Source: Halogranum rubrum (GTDB taxonomy: Archaea; Halobacteriota; Halobacteria; Halobacteriales; Haloferacaceae). From it: 64,000 bases of DNA. The stretch lies in the NCBI RefSeq assembly GCF_900114455.1, contig NZ_FOTC01000001.1, positions 707,058 through 771,057 of the forward strand. The letters run 5' to 3'. The notes beneath the pieces are model-generated. The model saw only the letters and a list, made by a program, of their open reading frames with translations, was not told the DNA's origin and ran no database searches. Of this stretch, positions 8,981 through 62,102 are shown piece after piece; position 1 is the first letter of the stretch, and every line of letters begins with the position of its first letter. Made by a program: the position numbers and the translations under genes.

Positions 8981-9106
8981 AACACAGTTAACGCGATGGA
9001 AAGCACTGCGAGCCACCATTGTCCCGATTCGGTTCGTTCGGCCAAACCTTCACGAAACCGAACGGTTACCCGGGCATACAGACAGTCCGTCGGGCGTAGT
9101 CGACGT

Positions 9107-9118
9107 ATAACAAATAGC
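9107..9118 (+). promoter_or_regulatory. Recurrent glycan-locus element, copy 4
   Basis: ATAACAAATAGC, 69 bases before the first minicistron ATG (9176) and 103 bases before the asparagine-synthase-like ATG (9210). Confidence 0.45.
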
Positions 9119-9165: not shown

Positions 9166-9216
9166 CTATACCGCAATGACAGCTATACCACAATGACAGC
9201 TATACCGCAATGACAG
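9166..9216 (+). repeat. Three tandem 17-bp repeats spanning the start codon, with two 6-codon minicistrons
   Basis: Three exact 17-bp units (9166-9182, 9183-9199, 9200-9216; one G/A difference in the middle unit). Each contains CAATGACAG. The first two ATGs (9176, 9193) open minicistrons that read MTAIPQ and stop at a TGA overlapping the next ATG as ATGA. The third ATG (9210) is the start of the amidotransferase-like gene. The geometry would allow translation to be passed from one unit to the next. Confidence 0.85.
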
Positions 9217-10964
9217 GACTTATCGGCGGGACACTTCCCGAATCGACAGTTTCAGAACTTCTCGAACGAACACCATCACGGAGTGAGTCGAACACGCTCA
9301 CGTTCTCCCGTGGTGACATCGCCCTCGGCATCTCACACCTCGGGGAGAAAGACCCCGGTGGATGGCTGACGTGGGACGAAGACGGCCTGACGGGCGTCCT
9401 CTACGGCGCCGTCACGAACCTCGACGACCTCGAATTCGACGTCGGCGAACTGTTCGAACGGGTCTTCGAGAACCCCGTCGACATCCTCCCGAACGTCGAC
9501 GGCCCGTTCGTCCTCGCGTGCACCGACGGCGACCGAGTCGTCGTCGCCACCGACAAACTGGGGACGCGCTCGTGTTACTACTCGGTCGACGACGGTTTCG
9601 TCTTCGGCTCGAACCTCAACGAACTCGCCGACACCGTCGACGACCCCACGGTGAACGAACGGGCCATCGGCGACTTGGTGATGATCGGGCACGTCTGGGG
9701 CGATAAGACGCTCTTAGAAGAGGTCACGTACCTCGACTCCGGATCCGTCCTCGAATACGAGGGCGGTGACGTCGAGAAGACGCGCTACTGGAAGTTCAAC
9801 TTCGACACGCGGGCACGTTCGTCGTTCATGCCGAACCTCGTCGACGCCTACCGGACCTGCATCCGCGACTCGGCGGCGACGATGGACGGCTCCGTCGGTC
9901 TGTGGCTCTCCGGTGGACTCGACAGTCGGGCGATGGCGGGCGAACTGAGCCAACACACCGACCTCTTGACCTACACCTACGACGCCAACCCCGCCGGGGG
10001 CGGCAACATCGAACTGGCACAGGAAGTCGCGGCCTGTCTCGGCCTCGGAAACGAGGAGGTCGAACTCACGCCCGGTCCGTTCGTCGACAACTTCGCGGAC
10101 GCCGTGACGCTGACCGACGGGATGCTCGGCTGGAATACGTTCTTGAACCTCACCGCCACGTTCAACATCCCCGAACCGACCGACATCCTACTCGAAGCCT
10201 GCGGTCAGGGCGGGATGATGGGCGACGGTCTCAGCCGTGCCGCTATCGAACTGAGCGACTCCCCCGAAGACGCGCTCTACAACGCGAAACATCAGACCTC
10301 GAAGGACCTCGTGAACCGTATCCTCGCGGGCGACGTCGACCTCGACCAGACCTACCGCGAGGAGGTCGGAAAGAGCCAGCAGAACGGCTACGTCGAGACG
10401 GTGATGGACTGCTACTACCGCAACTACTTCCCACGCGGTGACTTCGCCAGCAACAAACTCGTCCGCAGTCGCGCGGGGACGCGTGTTCCGTTCGCCCACG
10501 GCGAGTTCCTCCGTGCGGTGACGAAGATGCCGCTCGACCAGCGCGTCGGCTGGGTTCCGGCGACGAGAGGGAAGATTCCGTTCGGCACCGCCGAGGCGAA
10601 ACTCGAACTCACGCGCCAACTCGGGTACGGACTGGAGAAGATTCCGTACGAGCGGACCAAAGTGGCTCCCGAACGACCGCTCTGGATGCACGCCGCCGGA
10701 TTCGTCGTCGGGACGTCGCTGCAGCGCGTCCGCGGGAAGACGGCCTACGGCGGCCGCCGGATGCAGAGTCTGTGGTCTATCAAGGACGAGGGGCTCAAGT
10801 CGAAACTGACCGACCTCATGGAGGGCGCTGCCGACCGAGAGTTCTTCGACAGCGACCAGATCACCCAGCTCTCCGAGGAACACTTCAGCGGCGACGTCGA
10901 CCACATCGGTGCCATCTCGGGTATCACGACGGTCGAACAGTGGCTCCAGTCGAACTACGACTGA
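9210..10964 (+). CDS. Asparagine-synthase-like amidotransferase/adenylating enzyme lacking the glutaminase Cys
   Basis: 584 residues with the two-domain layout of asparagine synthase B: an N-terminal class-II glutamine-amidotransferase-like domain (about 1-190) and a C-terminal ATP-pyrophosphatase domain with LSGGLDSR (Ser 234 to Ser 239). The mature N-terminus begins MTGLIGG where active AsnB has MCG, so the nucleophilic Cys is replaced by Thr and glutaminase activity should be absent. Similar enzymes in glycan loci are thought to amidate uronic acids or other carboxylates, possibly using free ammonia. That would fit with the uronic-acid genes nearby, but it is inference. The start is set by the third of three tandem repeats upstream. 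Confidence 0.85.
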   Translation: MTGLIGGTLPESTVSELLERTPSRSESNTLTFSRGDIALGISHLGEKDPGGWLTWDEDGLTGVLYGAVTNLDDLEFDVGELFERVFENPVDILPNVDGPFVLACTDGDRVVVATDKLGTRSCYYSVDDGFVFGSNLNELADTVDDPTVNERAIGDLVMIGHVWGDKTLLEEVTYLDSGSVLEYEGGDVEKTRYWKFNFDTRARSSFMPNLVDAYRTCIRDSAATMDGSVGLWLSGGLDSRAMAGELSQHTDLLTYTYDANPAGGGNIELAQEVAACLGLGNEEVELTPGPFVDNFADAVTLTDGMLGWNTFLNLTATFNIPEPTDILLEACGQGGMMGDGLSRAAIELSDSPEDALYNAKHQTSKDLVNRILAGDVDLDQTYREEVGKSQQNGYVETVMDCYYRNYFPRGDFASNKLVRSRAGTRVPFAHGEFLRAVTKMPLDQRVGWVPATRGKIPFGTAEAKLELTRQLGYGLEKIPYERTKVAPERPLWMHAAGFVVGTSLQRVRGKTAYGGRRMQSLWSIKDEGLKSKLTDLMEGAADREFFDSDQITQLSEEHFSGDVDHIGAISGITTVEQWLQSNYD

Positions 10965-12417: not shown

Positions 12418-12547
12418 GCAGAACGTTCCACCTGCGACGAACTGCGCTCTTCGCTCGTATACACGCCGAACACAGTATTTACCCACTGAATCGAGCAACT
12501 CGTCCCGACGCGCGTGGTAAGCACTCGTGTCCACCGTTACCGGAGCT

Positions 12548-12559
12548 ATAACAAAGCGG
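12548..12559 (+). promoter_or_regulatory. Recurrent glycan-locus element, copy 6
   Basis: ATAACAAAGCGG, about 90 bases before the GTG at 12647. Divergent partner of the copy at 12406. Confidence 0.5.
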
Positions 12560-12646
12560 ATTCCGCCCCGACTGTGTTCCAAGTGATATCTACTAGTCCC
12601 CCCGGCACCTGCCGCCGGTTCACAGTGTCCACCAGGAGGGTCGACG

Positions 12647-13657
12647 GTGCGTAACCGTGCTCTCGCCGCCGACGTCGTCCTGACGTTGGTCGCTATCGCC
12701 GTCCCCACCGCAGCCGTCGCCAGCGGTATCGTGGGACCGATTCGTGCCGTCCTCGGAGGGTTCCTCCTCCTCTTCTTGCCGGGATACGCGCTGACGACGC
12801 TCGTCTTCCCCGCAACGGAGACTGTATCGGCCGAAGAAGCCTCGCAATCGCCGATGGCCGGTACCGACGGCCCACGACGAGCGAGTCTCCCGCTTCTCGA
12901 ACGCCTCGCGCTCGGCTTCGGGCTGAGTATCGCGCTAGTGCCAGTGTTCGCGTGGGGGCTCAGCAGCGTGAACGCCGACATCGCCTTCGAGACGACGTCT
13001 ATCCTCGGTGTGTCGGCCGCGACGGCCGTCATCGGGACGCTCTCTGGCGCGGTCCGCCGGTTCCGAGTGCCGTCCGAGAGCCGATACGTCATCCCGTTCG
13101 GTGGCCTCCGCTCACTTCGCTCGATGTGGGCGACTTCGAACGTCGACCGAGCGCTGAACGTCGCGCTGACCCTCTCTATCGTCGTCGCCGCAGTCGTCGT
13201 GACTGCCGGTATCGTCGTACCGAACGAGGGCGAGTCGTTCACGCAGGTAGCGATTCTCACCGAAAGCGACGACGGTGACCTCGTCGCCGGCAACTACCCG
13301 GAGCGAATCGCTCCCGGCGGGTCGGCGGAGATGGTCCTCCAAGTCGAGAACTACGAACAGCAGGCCACGACGTACACCGTCGTCGTCCAACTCCAACGCG
13401 TGGACGACGACGGCCGTGTCGTAGAGCAGGCAGAACTCAACCAGTTCTCACAGACACTCGCCGACCGCCAGACGTGGCAGGCGACGCACGTCGTCCAACC
13501 GACGTTCGAAGGGAAGAACCTCCGAATCGCGTACCTCGTCTACAAGGGCGATGCCCCTGCACAGGCCAGTCTCGACTCGGCGTACCGGTCGGTGACACTG
13601 TGGACCGACGTGACCCCGACGCCGGTTGAGGAGACCGAGGAGACGAACGATGAGTGA
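12647..13657 (+). CDS. DUF1616-type membrane protein
   Basis: 336 residues, starting GTG. Four hydrophobic segments lie in the first 200 residues (about 8-30, 33-52, 88-108, 118-137), with another near 165-190. A large C-terminal extracytoplasmic domain begins with VPNEGESFTQVAILTESDDGDLVAGNYP and contains GGSAEMVLQVENYEQQATTYTVVVQLQ. This architecture is typical of the DUF1616 family, which recurs in haloarchaeal glycosylation and surface-polymer loci; its biochemical role is not established. It overlaps the next gene by 8 bases, so the two are probably translationally coupled. Confidence 0.8.
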   Translation: MRNRALAADVVLTLVAIAVPTAAVASGIVGPIRAVLGGFLLLFLPGYALTTLVFPATETVSAEEASQSPMAGTDGPRRASLPLLERLALGFGLSIALVPVFAWGLSSVNADIAFETTSILGVSAATAVIGTLSGAVRRFRVPSESRYVIPFGGLRSLRSMWATSNVDRALNVALTLSIVVAAVVVTAGIVVPNEGESFTQVAILTESDDGDLVAGNYPERIAPGGSAEMVLQVENYEQQATTYTVVVQLQRVDDDGRVVEQAELNQFSQTLADRQTWQATHVVQPTFEGKNLRIAYLVYKGDAPAQASLDSAYRSVTLWTDVTPTPVEETEETNDE

Positions 13658-14813: not shown

Positions 14814-14961
14814 GATGAGTACCGTCACTTCCTCGACCACCACGCGATCGAATCCCGCTCGACTCGGGGAGACGCGTGCAGCGCGTCTAGAGCGTCCAGA
14901 ACGCTCGGGTACGCTGTCCCGACAGAACGGTAATGTGTACGGACAGTTCGTTACATCGCGT

Positions 14962-14973
14962 ATAACGATAGTC
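14962..14973 (+). promoter_or_regulatory. Recurrent glycan-locus element, copy 7
   Basis: ATAACGATAGTC, about 110 bases upstream of ATG 15082. The first eleven bases match the copy at 18318, and all twelve match the copy at 3236. Confidence 0.5.
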
Positions 14974-15081
14974 TCTATCTTCGTACACTCTCGTGTGAAA
15001 TACGTTCGAAACGAGAGCTGTCGCCGCGTGGCTAACACCACTCGGTGGAGTACACGGCCGGTCCACGGAGGGTGAGCATCG

Positions 15082-16992
15082 ATGGCTACGACTACAAAGA
15101 CGCGCACACTCACGCACACGAACAAGGAGACGAACACGACGAGCAGTCGCGCCGTTCGACTCGGACTGACCGCCGGCTATCTCTCGCTCGCCGTAGGCGT
15201 CCTCGCTGCACGGGCCGTCCCCGCGACGAGTTACGAGCCGTCGCCGTACACGGCGACGCCGATTCTGTTCTGGGTCGGTCTCGTCGTCGCGGTGACGCTC
15301 GGCCTCGCCAGCAGCGCAGTCGGGAGTCGACTCGGGCGGTACGGCGGACTCGGTCTCGCCGGACTCGCGACAGTCGCGTTCCTCGCGTTACCGTTCATCC
15401 GTAGTTACTACTTCTACGGCTCCGGCGACGCACTGACACATCTCGGGTGGGCGCAGGGGATGCTCGAACCCGGCTTCGGGTTCTTCGACCTCATCTACCC
15501 GGGAGGGCACTCGCTGAGCCTCTATCTCTCGCAGATGATGGGCGTGCCCGTCCGCCACGGACTGATGTACGCGATGCTCGCGGTTTCCGTCGTGACGTTG
15601 CTGTTCGTCCCGCTGTCGGTGTGGGTCGTCCTCCGCGACAAGCGAGTGTTGGCGTTCGCCGCCGTCACGGCGATGCTGATGCTCCCGATGAACAACATCA
15701 GCACGCACCCCGGTTTCCACACCTACACGCTCGGCACGCTGTACTTCCCGCTCGTGCTCTACATGACGTTCAAGCACATCACTCGCGGGGCCGACGACGA
15801 GACGCTCCCGTCGTGGCTCTCGGCGGTGAGTCTCCTCTCGCCGATTCCGCTCGCCGCGATGGTGTTCTACCACCCACAGGTGGCTATCGACGTCGTCATC
15901 CTCCTCGCGACGGTGCTCACCGTCGGCTACATCTACCGCCGCCGCGCGAGCGGTGACCTCGACAGCGCACAGTTCAGACACCGGTTGCTCGTCGGACAGG
16001 TCGTCGTCATCACGGCTATCTTCGTCTACTGGACGCTGCGGTACGAGAAGACCTACTCGTTCGCAGAGAACACGACGAACTCACTGCTCTCGTTCCTCGA
16101 GACGGGAGAGGGCGTCGGCAGCATCACACAGGACAGAGCGAATTCGGGCCAGCAGCTCGGAGAGAACGTTCTCTTGGAGCTGTTCCTCAAACTGTTCCTC
16201 GTCAAGGTGGCGTACATCGGTGTCGCCACCGCGCTCGTCGCGGCGAAGCTGTTCGGTCGCGTGAACAACAAAAGCGAGAGCGACAGTGGGATGGTCATCA
16301 CCTACCTCGGGTTCTCGGGACTCACTCTCGGCCCGTTCTTCGCCGTGCAGTACCTCGGCAACGTGTCGAGCTACTTCTTCCGGCATCTCGGGTTCGCGAT
16401 GGTCCTCGTCGGCGTCCTCGCTGCCGTCGGGTTGTTCTACTTCGCGAGGCACGTCTCGCCACACGTCGGCCAACGGGGTCGAGCGCTGTTCACCGTCTTC
16501 GGTGTACTCGTCCTCTGTCTGTCGCTCGTAGCGTACTATCCCTCGCCGTACGTCTACCTCCCGTCGTCGCACACGCCGGAGACACAGTTCGTCGGCTACC
16601 AGACGACGTTCGACACGCTTCCCGAGGAGACACCGCTGGCGAAGGTCCGTATCGGCCCCAGTCGGTTCTCCGACGCACTGGGTGCAGAGGTTCCGGGCAG
16701 ACTGCTGTGGGGGGTGCCCGGGCCACAAATGGATAGCCTCGGGAACATCACCGAGTTCCGTGAGAACAATGGAACCGATGTTCCCGCCTACTACCTCGTC
16801 GTCTCCGAACGCGACCGAGGACGTGAGGTCGACGGCTTCCACGGAATTCGCTACCAGAACGACGACTTCGAACGCGTCCAGACCGCAACCGACTCACGCA
16901 TCTCGCGGGTCCAGACGAACGGGGACTACGAGGTGTACTACATCGACCAACGCGGTCTGCCGCTCGAAGCGACACCCGACGTTACCGGCTAA
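15082..16992 (+). CDS. Multispan membrane protein, GT-C-like or polymerase-like
   Basis: 636 residues with roughly twelve hydrophobic helices between about residues 25 and 500. An extracytoplasmic C-terminal domain (about 500-636) follows, starting PSPYVYLPSSHTPETQFVGY. The loop after the third helix contains YFYGSGDALTHLGWAQGMLE, an acidic loop in the place where GT-C glycosyltransferases and some oligosaccharide polymerases have their active site. I infer an integral-membrane glycosyltransferase or Wzy-type polymerase; neither is proved. The 5' region (14814-15081) contains a short frame from ATG 14815 that I do not call. Confidence 0.7.
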   Translation: MATTTKTRTLTHTNKETNTTSSRAVRLGLTAGYLSLAVGVLAARAVPATSYEPSPYTATPILFWVGLVVAVTLGLASSAVGSRLGRYGGLGLAGLATVAFLALPFIRSYYFYGSGDALTHLGWAQGMLEPGFGFFDLIYPGGHSLSLYLSQMMGVPVRHGLMYAMLAVSVVTLLFVPLSVWVVLRDKRVLAFAAVTAMLMLPMNNISTHPGFHTYTLGTLYFPLVLYMTFKHITRGADDETLPSWLSAVSLLSPIPLAAMVFYHPQVAIDVVILLATVLTVGYIYRRRASGDLDSAQFRHRLLVGQVVVITAIFVYWTLRYEKTYSFAENTTNSLLSFLETGEGVGSITQDRANSGQQLGENVLLELFLKLFLVKVAYIGVATALVAAKLFGRVNNKSESDSGMVITYLGFSGLTLGPFFAVQYLGNVSSYFFRHLGFAMVLVGVLAAVGLFYFARHVSPHVGQRGRALFTVFGVLVLCLSLVAYYPSPYVYLPSSHTPETQFVGYQTTFDTLPEETPLAKVRIGPSRFSDALGAEVPGRLLWGVPGPQMDSLGNITEFRENNGTDVPAYYLVVSERDRGREVDGFHGIRYQNDDFERVQTATDSRISRVQTNGDYEVYYIDQRGLPLEATPDVTG

Positions 16993-18165: not shown

Positions 18166-18317
18166 CCCAGTTGGGGCCGATGAAGGAACCGTTTTCTACA
18201 GTTGTCGCGTCTAACAGTGCATTTCAGCCGGAACATTGTCACGATTGCTCACGGTGGAGTCGGCCGAAAACGGGTGAACGAACGGCAAGCAAGACGTACC
18301 GAACCATTATCCGATTC

Positions 18318-18329
18318 ATAACGATAGCC
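18318..18329 (+). promoter_or_regulatory. Recurrent glycan-locus element, copy 9
   Basis: ATAACGATAGCC, 22 bases before the short reading frame that starts at ATG 18351 and about 54 bases before the flippase GTG. Confidence 0.5.
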
Positions 18330-18350: not shown

Positions 18351-18386
18351 ATGAACGTAGCTGTCGCTGGAGAGGTCCAACCGTGA
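18351..18386 (+). other. Possible 11-residue leader ORF overlapping the flippase start
   Basis: ATG 18351 opens a frame reading MNVAVAGEVQP and stopping at TGA 18384-18386, which overlaps the GTG (18383) of the flippase gene as GTGA. It is too short for a call on composition. Overlap with a weak GTG start suggests translational coupling. Confidence 0.35.
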
Positions 18387-19882
18387 AAAAGCCCAGTTCC
18401 CTCCTTGGTCGCCTCGTCCCGACGGGTGGAACCGCCGAACGCGTCGTCAAGGGCGCGTTCTGGGCGATGAGTCAGAACACCTTCGGTCGCGTGCTACAGT
18501 TGGCGATGCTCGTCATCCTCGCACGACTCATCGGCCCCGCAGAGATCGGGCTGGTCGGTATCGCGCTGCTCTCGGTGAGTGCGATTCAAAAGTTCACGAA
18601 CTTCGGTCTCAACGCCGCGCTCGTCCAGCGTGAAGAAGAGAACGTCGACGAACATCTGAATACGATGTGGATTCTCGAAATCCTTCGTGGGAGCCTCATC
18701 TTCGTCGTGCTGTTCTTCTTGGCCCCGTTCATCGGCCAGTTGTTCAGCGAACCGCGAGCGACGGACCTCATCCGCGTCATCGGGCTCTCGCCGCTCCTGT
18801 TCGGACTGACGAACCCGGGCGTGATGTACTTCCAGAAGAAACTCGAGTTCCACAAGCAGTTCGTCCTCCGCGTCGGCGGAGAGATCGCACAGTTCATTGT
18901 CGCGGTGGCGGTTGCGATGGTCGAACCGACCGCGTGGGCCTTCGTCGCCGGCTACGTCGCCGCCGACGTCGTCCGTCTCGTGGCGTCGTATCTGATGCAC
19001 AGTTACCGTCCGAGCATCCAGTTCGACCGCGAGTCCGCCGGTGAACTCATCGGCTACGGCAAGTGGATCACCGGGTCCTCCATCCTCTACTTCCTCTACA
19101 GTGAGGGTGACGACGCCTTCGTCGGCTGGTTCATCAACCCGGCCGCTCTCGCGTTCTACCAGTACGGCTACCGCTTCTCGAACGCACCGGCGACCGAACT
19201 GACGAGCGTCATCTCGTCGGTGATGTTCCCGGCGTTCTCGAAGATTCAAGCCGACGCCTCGCTACTGCGTGAGACGTTCCGCAAGACGCTTCGCGTGAAC
19301 GCGTTCATCTCGGCACCCGTCGCCTTCGGTATCGCCGTCGTCGCACCGGACTTCGTCATGACCTTCTTCGGTTCCGAGTGGGAGAGCATGATCGTCCCGA
19401 TGCAGATTCTCGCCGCGTACGGCTTCCTCCGCGCACTCGGTCAGACGTTCGGTCCGGTGTGGAAAGCCCTCGACCGCCCGGACATCATCACGAAGCTCTC
19501 GGCGATCCGAGTCGTCCTCATGGCGATTCTCATCTGGCCGCTGACCGACGCCTACGGCATCGCCGGCACGGCCGCGACGGTGACGCTCATCTCCATCTTC
19601 CCGATGGTCCCGCTCGACATCTACGTGACCGTCAAGATGCTCGGCCTGCGGACGGTCGAGGTGTACCGCGAGATCGCCTTCCCGACCTGTGCGAGCATCC
19701 TGATGGCGGCCATCGTCTGGTTCGTCAACCAGAGCCTCACCCTCCCGGCAGTCGCCGAGTTGGTCATCTCCATCGTCGTCGGTGCCGTGTCGTATCTCGC
19801 ACTCGTCCTCGTCTTCGAGCGACAGTTCCAGTGGGGTATTGGTCGCAACATTCGGAGTATCGTCTCGGCGGCCCGACGCTAA
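18383..19882 (+). CDS. Wzx-type polysaccharide flippase
   Basis: 499 residues. It shows the layout of the oligosaccharide-lipid flippase (MATE/MVF superfamily, RfbX/Wzx): about 12-14 hydrophobic helices. It begins with the family-like AERVVKGAFWAMSQNTFGRV and GPAEIGLVGIALLSVSAIQKFTNFG, and continues with LGQTFGPVWKALDRPDIITK between later helices. It is predicted to flip the lipid-linked glycan from the cytoplasmic to the outer face of the membrane. The start is a GTG overlapping the stop of a short leader ORF; the first convincing in-frame ATG is far inside the protein. Confidence 0.88.
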   Translation: MKKPSSLLGRLVPTGGTAERVVKGAFWAMSQNTFGRVLQLAMLVILARLIGPAEIGLVGIALLSVSAIQKFTNFGLNAALVQREEENVDEHLNTMWILEILRGSLIFVVLFFLAPFIGQLFSEPRATDLIRVIGLSPLLFGLTNPGVMYFQKKLEFHKQFVLRVGGEIAQFIVAVAVAMVEPTAWAFVAGYVAADVVRLVASYLMHSYRPSIQFDRESAGELIGYGKWITGSSILYFLYSEGDDAFVGWFINPAALAFYQYGYRFSNAPATELTSVISSVMFPAFSKIQADASLLRETFRKTLRVNAFISAPVAFGIAVVAPDFVMTFFGSEWESMIVPMQILAAYGFLRALGQTFGPVWKALDRPDIITKLSAIRVVLMAILIWPLTDAYGIAGTAATVTLISIFPMVPLDIYVTVKMLGLRTVEVYREIAFPTCASILMAAIVWFVNQSLTLPAVAELVISIVVGAVSYLALVLVFERQFQWGIGRNIRSIVSAARR

Positions 19883-25261: not shown

Positions 25262-25568
25262 AGAGCGGTTAATCGCGACTCACTGTCTCGTTGATAGACA
25301 CGATCAGACGGGACGGTCACAGTTCGGTGGCCCTCGACAGCGTACGCCGACATGGTCCGATGAGGCGGATTTTTCCCCTCGACTCTGTACTCGTAGCCGA
25401 TGGTAAGGGGCCCTTACATCGAGCCGAAACTGGCGAGTACGACCCTCTCTGACCCGCTCACTGGGCACTGTGTCTCTCGACAGTCCCTGCACGCGTACCG
25501 GAGGAGAACGACGCCGCGACCCGACAGAACCGAGCGGCCGAGAGTGACGTTCGACCGACAGGCGCTCC

Positions 25569-25580
25569 ATAACAAAGCGC
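25569..25580 (+). promoter_or_regulatory. Recurrent glycan-locus element, copy 11
   Basis: ATAACAAAGCGC, about 90 bases before wecB ATG 25667. Nearly identical to the copies at 849, 12406 and 12548. Confidence 0.5.
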
Positions 25581-25666
25581 ATCCCCCTCATCAATACGAG
25601 TCAGTGAGCCGGCCATATGATACACCAACGTGAACCGACAGCGAGAGACGACCGTGTGGGGGAGCG

Positions 25667-26803
25667 ATGAGTACCCAATCGACGCCGACGAACGTCGTCA
25701 TCGTCCTCGGCACGCGCCCCGAGATAATCAAGTTCGCACCGGTGATTCGCGAGTGCATCGACCGAGAGGTCCCCTTCACGCTCGTTCACACGGGCCAGCA
25801 CTACTCGCCGGACTTGGACGAAGTGTTCTTCGACCAACTAGAGCTGCCCGCACCGGACGTCCATCTCGGCGTCGGGTCGGACTCTCACGGCAAACAGACC
25901 GCCGCGATGCTCGAAGGCGTCGAAGAAGTGCTGTTCGACGTCGAACCCGACGTGGTCCTCGTCCAGGGTGACACGAACTCGACGCTCGCCGGTGCGCTGG
26001 CGGCCGCGAAACTCAACATCGAAGTCGGCCACATCGAGGCTGGCCTCCGAAGTTTCGACCGCGAGATGCCCGAGGAGACGAACCGTGTCGTCGTCGACCA
26101 CATCGCCGACTACCTGTTTACACCCACCTCCGAGACGCGCGAGTATCTGGAACGTGAAGGACTCTCCGACCGCATCTTCGTCACCGGGAACACCGTCGTC
26201 GACGCCGCCCACCAGTACGCCGACGTCGCCGCCGAGAAGAGCACCGTCCTCGACGAACTCGGCCTCGAACCGGGCGAGTTCTACCTCCTGACGGCACACC
26301 GCGCGGAGAACGTCGACCAACTCGACCGATTCAGCTCGCTGCTCGACGGCGTCGCACAGTTCGCCGACGAGACAGGGTGGGACGTCGTCTACCCGATTCA
26401 CCCGCGCGCGCAGAATCGCATCGACGCCTTCGACCTAGAGGTCCCCGACGCGATTCGACTCGTCGAACCGCTCGACTTCCTCGACTTCCTCCGACTGGAG
26501 TCGACGGCGGCGCTCGCGTTCACGGACTCCGGCGGCGTCCAAGAAGAGACCTGTATCCTCGGTACGCCCTGCGTGACGCTGCGGTACACGACCGAACGAC
26601 CCGAGACAGTGTACGTCGGTGCGAACTGTCTCGCGGGACTCGACCCCGTCGACATCGTCGACGCGGGCAGACAGATGCTCGGCAAACGCCCCGACTGGGA
26701 CGTTCCGTTCGGCGACGGACGGGCCGCCGAACGCATCCTGGACCTACTGACTGCACCCACCTCACCAACGGCCGGAACGATACCGGCGGAGACACCTCAA
26801 TGA
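25667..26803 (+). CDS. wecB: UDP-N-acetylglucosamine 2-epimerase (non-hydrolysing)
   Basis: 378 residues, full length for WecB/MnaA. Conserved features in order: VVIVLGTRPEIIKFAPVIRE at the N-terminus, VHTGQHYSPDLDEVFFDQL, VQGDTNSTLAGALAAAKLNI, HIEAGLRSFDREMPEETNR (the catalytic Asp/Glu region), LLTAHRAENVD, and FTDSGGVQEETCILGTPCVT in the C-terminal UDP-binding domain. It converts UDP-GlcNAc to UDP-ManNAc. Its stop overlaps the start of wecC (ATGA), so the pair makes UDP-ManNAcA for the surface glycan. Confidence 0.95.
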   Translation: MSTQSTPTNVVIVLGTRPEIIKFAPVIRECIDREVPFTLVHTGQHYSPDLDEVFFDQLELPAPDVHLGVGSDSHGKQTAAMLEGVEEVLFDVEPDVVLVQGDTNSTLAGALAAAKLNIEVGHIEAGLRSFDREMPEETNRVVVDHIADYLFTPTSETREYLEREGLSDRIFVTGNTVVDAAHQYADVAAEKSTVLDELGLEPGEFYLLTAHRAENVDQLDRFSSLLDGVAQFADETGWDVVYPIHPRAQNRIDAFDLEVPDAIRLVEPLDFLDFLRLESTAALAFTDSGGVQEETCILGTPCVTLRYTTERPETVYVGANCLAGLDPVDIVDAGRQMLGKRPDWDVPFGDGRAAERILDLLTAPTSPTAGTIPAETPQ

Positions 26804-61855: not shown

Positions 61856-62102
61856 AACTTAAGGTTGTCGTCGGGACAGGTTCCTGCGGGAGAATCCCGA
61901 GCGTCCGTCGTGTGTCGACACGAAACACGGAGTCAGCGCTGTTGGCAGTCGACCACGGACGAGTCGGACTCACCCGGACGGTTTCGCCGATATTCGCCGA
62001 TATTCGCCGAAATCGCGAGGAAGCGACGGATTCCGAAAGCTTCAACTAGCAATCGGCGGTAGAGTGGAGTGCGCTCAGACGGGGCGTGAATGCAAGCACA
62101 CC
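61856..62102. other. Intergenic region between the trp operon and tRNA genes
   Basis: No gene seen. Contains a short direct repeat CGATATTCGC (61984 and 61995). It is the region from which the tRNA-Val promoter must act. Confidence 0.4.

Follow-up and report, generated by a model that had tools for sequence, protein, structure and literature searches.

How is a gene translated when its start codon stands at the end of a row of copies of itself? This question is raised by a locus of the archaeon Halogranum rubrum, contained in a 64,000-nucleotide stretch of DNA (the window), in which three tandem 17-bp units, each with an ATG, lie across the start of a gene for an asparagine-synthase-like protein. 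The original prediction for this locus was that the first two ATGs open six-codon frames (MTAIPQ) ending in an ATGA shared with the next start, that the third ATG begins the real gene, and that translation is controlled by reinitiation, with the number of repeats acting like a phase-variable switch. We analyzed the array, the cluster in which it lies, and the leaders of orthologous genes in the Haloferacaceae and the wider order.

Results

The array over the start codon

The three units lie in exact register at positions 9166-9216 (period 17, 3.0 copies, 94% matches, score 95), and the coordinates given originally for the array and the frames of its two MTAIPQ minicistrons were confirmed (Table 1). 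Both minicistrons have six codons and close in an ATGA overlap, the stop/start overlap of coupled gene pairs. Units 1 and 3 are identical in sequence, and unit 2 differs by a CCG to CCA change that keeps the same proline and is therefore silent in the minicistron. Because the main frame begins in the last unit, a change in unit number leaves the main protein intact, as was predicted. The phase-variable-like switch has no support; a unit more or less neither shifts the main frame nor turns the gene off, and would grade its expression.

A scan for arrays (period 12-30, at most one mismatch per neighbour pair, low-complexity units excluded) found one array of at least three copies in the window and none in 20 dinucleotide shuffles. 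In the whole genome (4.57 Mb, up to 3 mismatches) the 17-bp unit has three matches, all inside the array, and a reversed control pattern has five. Of the 64 tandem-duplication loci found within 464 kb of the genome, the array and one weak 10-bp pair are the only ones that touch a predicted start. Two other repeats were seen in passing: a 10-bp unit present three times in non-coding DNA at 61982-62011 of the window, and a 22-bp unit in two perfect copies in the cluster of Halogranum amylolyticum (L182:5029-5073).

The array is not a chance product, and its coupling geometry is partly mechanical. Since 17 has the form 3n+2 and the gene begins with ATGA, every added ATG begins a frame of six codons that ends on the next start. 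When duplications of 8-40 nt were simulated over the same start, an ATGA-coupled minicistron resulted in 156 of 693 cases, all with a length of 3n+2. Coupling thus follows from the arithmetic of duplication and is by itself no proof of function. The predicted RNA structure of the leader of the array gene showed nothing beyond chance (z 0.02). No plasmid-borne copy of the array was found; five plasmid records match the gene only, at 71-80% identity.

Table 1. Positions of the array, its gene and the related features of the glycan cluster in the window.
Feature	Positions	Strand	Size	Remarks
NATAACNA element, asparagine-synthase-like gene	9106..9114	+		TATAACAAA; also upstream in orthologs of G001 (H. 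amylolyticum), g15, g6, g9 and g19
17-bp unit 1	9166..9182	+	17 bp	contains ATG1 (9176)
17-bp unit 2	9183..9199	+	17 bp	contains ATG2 (9193); one mismatch
17-bp unit 3	9200..9216	+	17 bp	contains ATG3 (9210), the main gene start
Minicistron 1, MTAIPQ	9176..9196	+	6 codons	TGA overlaps ATG2
Minicistron 2, MTAIPQ	9193..9213	+	6 codons	TGA overlaps ATG3
Asparagine-synthase-like protein	9210..10964	+	584 aa	PF00733, E 2.1e-12; conserved start
NATAACNA element, flippase gene	18317..18325	+
Flippase minicistron, MNVAVAGEVQP	18351..18386	+	11 codons	GTGA overlap; kept in G001, g10 and g15
MOP/Wzx-type flippase	18383..19882	+	499 aa	PF13440, E 7.8e-79
NATAACNA element, epimerase gene	25568..25576	+
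Epimerase minicistron, MIHQREPTARDDRVGER	25617..25670	+	17 codons	ATGA overlap; coupled counterparts in 6 genera
UDP-GlcNAc 2-epimerase (WecB-like)	25667..26803	+	378 aa	TIGR00236 above cut-off; PF02350

The main gene and its cluster

The gene behind the array, described originally as amidotransferase-like, does encode an asparagine-synthase-like protein with a PF00733 match. That its true start is ATG3, another point on which the original prediction was right, is supported by the motif MTG[LF][IV]GG, which is kept at the start in relatives, and by the annotated starts of the orthologs in Haloferax gibbonsii and H. lucentense. Enzymes that hydrolyse glutamine carry a cysteine nucleophile at the residue after Met. 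In this protein and its relatives the residue after Met is Thr, Ser, Pro, Val or Asn (9210-9240 in the window), and the match of the protein to a glutaminase domain stayed below the cut-off. The surrounding genes form a surface-glycan cluster, with glycosyltransferases, a flippase, a UDP-GlcNAc 2-epimerase and a nucleotide-sugar dehydrogenase.

Coupled minicistrons in the orthologs

Minicistrons that end on the main start recur before the orthologs of three genes of the cluster. In Haloferax, all 11 distinct leaders of the asparagine-synthase-like gene have an unchanged upstream ATG exactly 59 nt before the gene, and the frame that it opens always has 20 codons and closes in an ATGA overlap. 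The coupling frame of these leaders has no stops, versus six and four in the other two frames. Over the upstream frame, four divergent leaders share no more than 44-67% of their sequence, and the peptide is not conserved. Codon differences in the coupling frame were 455 non-synonymous and 78 synonymous, against 477/79 and 438/98 in the other frames. A regulatory peptide or leader-peptide attenuator was considered and rejected, because synonymous changes are not in excess in the coupling frame, whether in Haloferax, g10 or g15. The minicistron is absent from the annotation in two Haloferax records. Before the epimerase gene the minicistrons have 17, 19, 22, 25 or 26 codons depending on the genus, always in the coupling frame, and before the flippase gene they have 11 or 12 codons in close orthologs.

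Coupled minicistrons were then counted over all three families, in 98 rows of orthologs. For the asparagine-synthase-like family, 34 of 170 genomes matched and 28 rows were used, after removal of L048 and L050 (match starting at residue 50 or 16) and of matches without a locus. For the two neighbour families, 76 and 55 of 167 genomes matched, and the 35 rows of each are the top rows plus some lower ones. The rows counted were those with the sequence element NATAACNA 45-150 nt upstream and an NTGA start. A coupled ATG minicistron was present in 38 of these 42 rows, against 5.9 expected from shuffled leaders (13/17 for the asparagine-synthase-like gene, 13/13 for the epimerase, 12/12 for the flippase). 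The remaining four rows, all of the asparagine-synthase-like gene, have NATAACNA in a long leader with no coupled minicistron and come from H. amylolyticum, g15 and g6. When rows were grouped by genus and family, every row was coupled in 13 of 16 groups (2.46 expected), and in 11 of 13 once the three groups of the window's own genus were set aside. The P values of 4e-9 and 1e-10 are too small, because the epimerase and flippase families were picked for their coupled copies in the window, NATAACNA was noticed in the same data, and rows within a genus share descent.

Rows without NATAACNA were coupled in 17 of 36 cases, against 6.25 expected, so the element is not required. Six flippase orthologs of g21 without NATAACNA (L138, L139, L141, L166, L167 and L168) all have a 24-codon coupled minicistron at -71. 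The 36 order-level loci (L054-L089; L063 is cut at a contig end) were kept outside these 98 rows; nine of them have an ATG minicistron ending on the start, although the main start of L068 is a doubtful CTG. Across the genome of Halogranum rubrum, an excess of coupled ATG minicistrons was not clear (11/72 versus 7.96 expected; 14% of shuffles reached the observed count).

A promoter-like element ahead of the minicistrons

NATAACNA is common to several cluster genes and conserved across genera. In 464 kb of the genome it has 21 matches at most 150 nt from a predicted start, 10 of them within the 64-kb window (848-52207), and it could serve as a promoter or regulator site specific to the cluster. 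A start-aligned profile of the same genome placed BRE and TATA at -34 to -26, and the TATA of leaderless genes at -29 to -26, so that a start about 34 nt after NATAACNA is where a leaderless transcript would be expected to begin. Taking the nearest coupled start in each row, minicistrons start 33-49 nt after NATAACNA, the window gene apart. In six rows of the asparagine-synthase-like gene it is the main ATG that follows the element at 34-38 nt, and there is no minicistron. This geometry suggests that the conserved minicistrons would be read from a near-leaderless start, and the main gene by termination-reinitiation. A promoter weight matrix built from the genome's own starts made no site in the leader stand out, and NATAACNA scores only 0.82 with it.

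GTG frames were also seen behind NATAACNA in the window. Before gene 12647 (12547-12670), a 23-codon GTG frame begins 36 nt after the element and overlaps the main start by 8 nt; frame and overlap are also found in H. amylolyticum, and in both species a purine-rich, SD-like stretch lies ahead of the main start. Before gene 15082 (14961-15082), a GTG frame begins 34 nt after the element and stops a few nucleotides short of the main start.

SD motifs

No SD motif was found at ATG2 or ATG3 of the array. An SD of at least 4 nt precedes the main start in 25 of the 34 coupled rows, the array excluded, and SD motifs occur in 32 of 50 genes directly adjoining the gene upstream versus 57 of 219 free-standing genes. 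The array is therefore not tuned like its coupled relatives and resembles the uncoupled orthologs. In Haloferax volcanii, SD motifs in 5'-UTRs are reported not to serve de novo initiation, and to contribute to reinitiation variably and not essentially (PMC6728339, available text), so that a missing SD does not bar the array from the class of coupled pairs.

Origin of the array

The original prediction named a lack of the repeats in close relatives as a result that would speak against it, and this is what was found. Halogranum amylolyticum CGMCC 1.10121, the closest relative in the collections (protein 86% identical), has just one stretch resembling the unit, with no ATG frame upstream of its start, and the orthologs that come next (two of genus g15, 72-74% identity) likewise have one start and lack a minicistron. 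The array would most simply be a gain of 34 bp in the Halogranum rubrum lineage. NATAACNA lies 70 nt before ATG1 in the window and 72 nt before the sole start in H. amylolyticum, so the duplication seems to have left the first start in place and moved the gene two units away. ATG1 and ATG2 (87 nt from the element) both lie outside the 33-49 nt range of the conserved minicistrons, and there are two frames, not one. By spacing and SD marks, the window gene appears to group with the uncoupled orthologs of its own genus, with a coupled relay grafted on by duplication. The array looks like an independent version of the putative ribosome-loading leader; if used it would work like one, but it does not belong to the conserved class by descent.

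Discussion

Judged from sequence, termination-reinitiation is the best reading of the window array. In the Halogranum rubrum lineage, 17 bp spanning the start codon would have been duplicated in tandem, which added two start codons upstream of the gene; all three starts would lie on a transcript from the putative NATAACNA promoter. Because ATG1 is near the ancestral distance from the element, ribosomes would begin at ATG1, from which the main start would be reached through two termination-reinitiation steps, or else ATG2 and ATG3 may be initiated directly. If the relay is used, every further unit would insert another reinitiation step and most likely lower the yield of the main protein. The array would then be a home-made variant of a wider Haloferacaceae arrangement, in which a short minicistron close to the expected leaderless start is conserved only in its start, its frame and its ATGA or GTGA overlap with the glycan gene behind it; such a minicistron would deliver ribosomes and encode no useful peptide. 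We give about even chances to the reading of the array as a duplicated-start relay and variant of these ribosome-loading minicistrons. The predicted control by reinitiation is plausible, with relatives and two cluster neighbours carrying conserved coupled minicistrons; the missing SD motifs at ATG2 and ATG3 and the 70-nt spacing of ATG1 count against it.

The array could also be a replication slip of little effect, in which ribosomes enter a leadered mRNA straight at ATG3, or use each of the three ATGs, and coupling is a by-product of unit length. The same coupling arose in the simulated duplications, ATG2 and ATG3 stand without SD motifs, orthologs in the same genus, g15 and g6 are uncoupled, and no clear genome-wide excess of coupled minicistrons was seen. 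We nevertheless find a neutral duplication rather unlikely, because upstream ATGs that are out of frame but set in the same context would be expected to draw off ribosomes, and because coupled minicistrons have been kept in other orthologs and before neighbour genes.

Duplication of a promoter is less probable again. Each unit holds a CTATAC, a possible TATA box for the ATG that follows some 27 nt downstream; new leaderless promoters would then have arisen, and the minicistrons would lie off the main mRNA. The CTATAC of units 1 and 2 does begin 27 nt before ATG2 and ATG3, close to the leaderless TATA position of this genome, and leaderless transcripts are reported to make up 72% of protein-coding transcripts in Haloferax volcanii (PMC4983044, available text). 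The weight-matrix scores of these two sites are weak, however (2.2 and 1.62, p ~0.01, against a best of 4.53 elsewhere in the leader region), and it is the upstream NATAACNA that is conserved across genera, despite its own low score. That units are gained and lost at a high rate, tuning expression between cells, would agree with their near purity and with a main protein spared by unit changes, but we consider such a copy-number switch very improbable: there are three copies only, one has diverged by a base, the nearest relative has a single unit, and one genome represents the species in the collections used. Against these alternatives we retain the duplicated-start relay.

Several elements of this relay have precedents, cited here from the available parts of the papers. 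The ATGA pairs of Haloferax volcanii (Huber et al. 2019, PMC6728339; 2023, PMC10666635) share the overlap and the organism group with the array. There, strict coupling was reported for nine of nine gene pairs (PMC6728339). It requires the stop and the start to be very close and depends strongly on their distance (PMC10666635), and shifting the stop by some 20 nt abolishes it (PMC6728339; PMC10666635). In E. coli the last 15 nt of the upstream gene, fused to a translated reporter, are enough for coupling (PMC10666635), so the overlap itself needs little sequence. The Haloferax volcanii pairs are full genes, whereas the frames of the array have six codons, stand in tandem from a duplicated start and lack an SD. 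A short frame is likewise translationally coupled to the next gene at iraD of E. coli, but that case is regulated by CsrA (PMC5574718), and the frame of the array is repeated and has no known regulator. Small frames also occur in haloarchaeal leaders as the upstream ORFs in long 5'-UTRs of Haloferax volcanii, one of the 16 listed preceding the glycan flippase gene agl15; unlike the six codons of the array, those 16 have 15-31 residues and leaders of 150-250 nt, and no overlapping of the main start is mentioned for them (PMC4983044). Delivery of ribosomes by a short upstream ORF, the function proposed here, is a general proposal in a review of coupling, where haloarchaeal glycan genes are not mentioned (PMC12548453). 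ATGA coupling, short upstream ORFs in haloarchaeal leaders and proposed ribosome delivery are thus already known. A literature search that took in few subscription papers and no supplementary tables returned no conserved coupled minicistrons before haloarchaeal glycan genes and no tandem array over a start codon.

Taken more broadly, and at a little under even confidence, the results would mean that translation of a group of surface-glycan genes in Haloferacaceae begins by a detour. A minicistron with a near-leaderless start, positioned by a promoter element common to these genes, would load ribosomes, which would go on to reinitiate at the gene proper; such frames could arise in one step by tandem duplication of a start, the array representing two such steps and a two-step relay. 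If so, some haloarchaeal genes with short leaders would be translated by way of a concealed first frame missing from annotation, and this would help to explain the SD motifs of leadered haloarchaeal genes, which are reported not to serve de novo initiation. Copying of the start codon would provide a simple origin for upstream frames, and the three-unit array would be a natural test piece, in which the removal of units sets the number of reinitiation steps.
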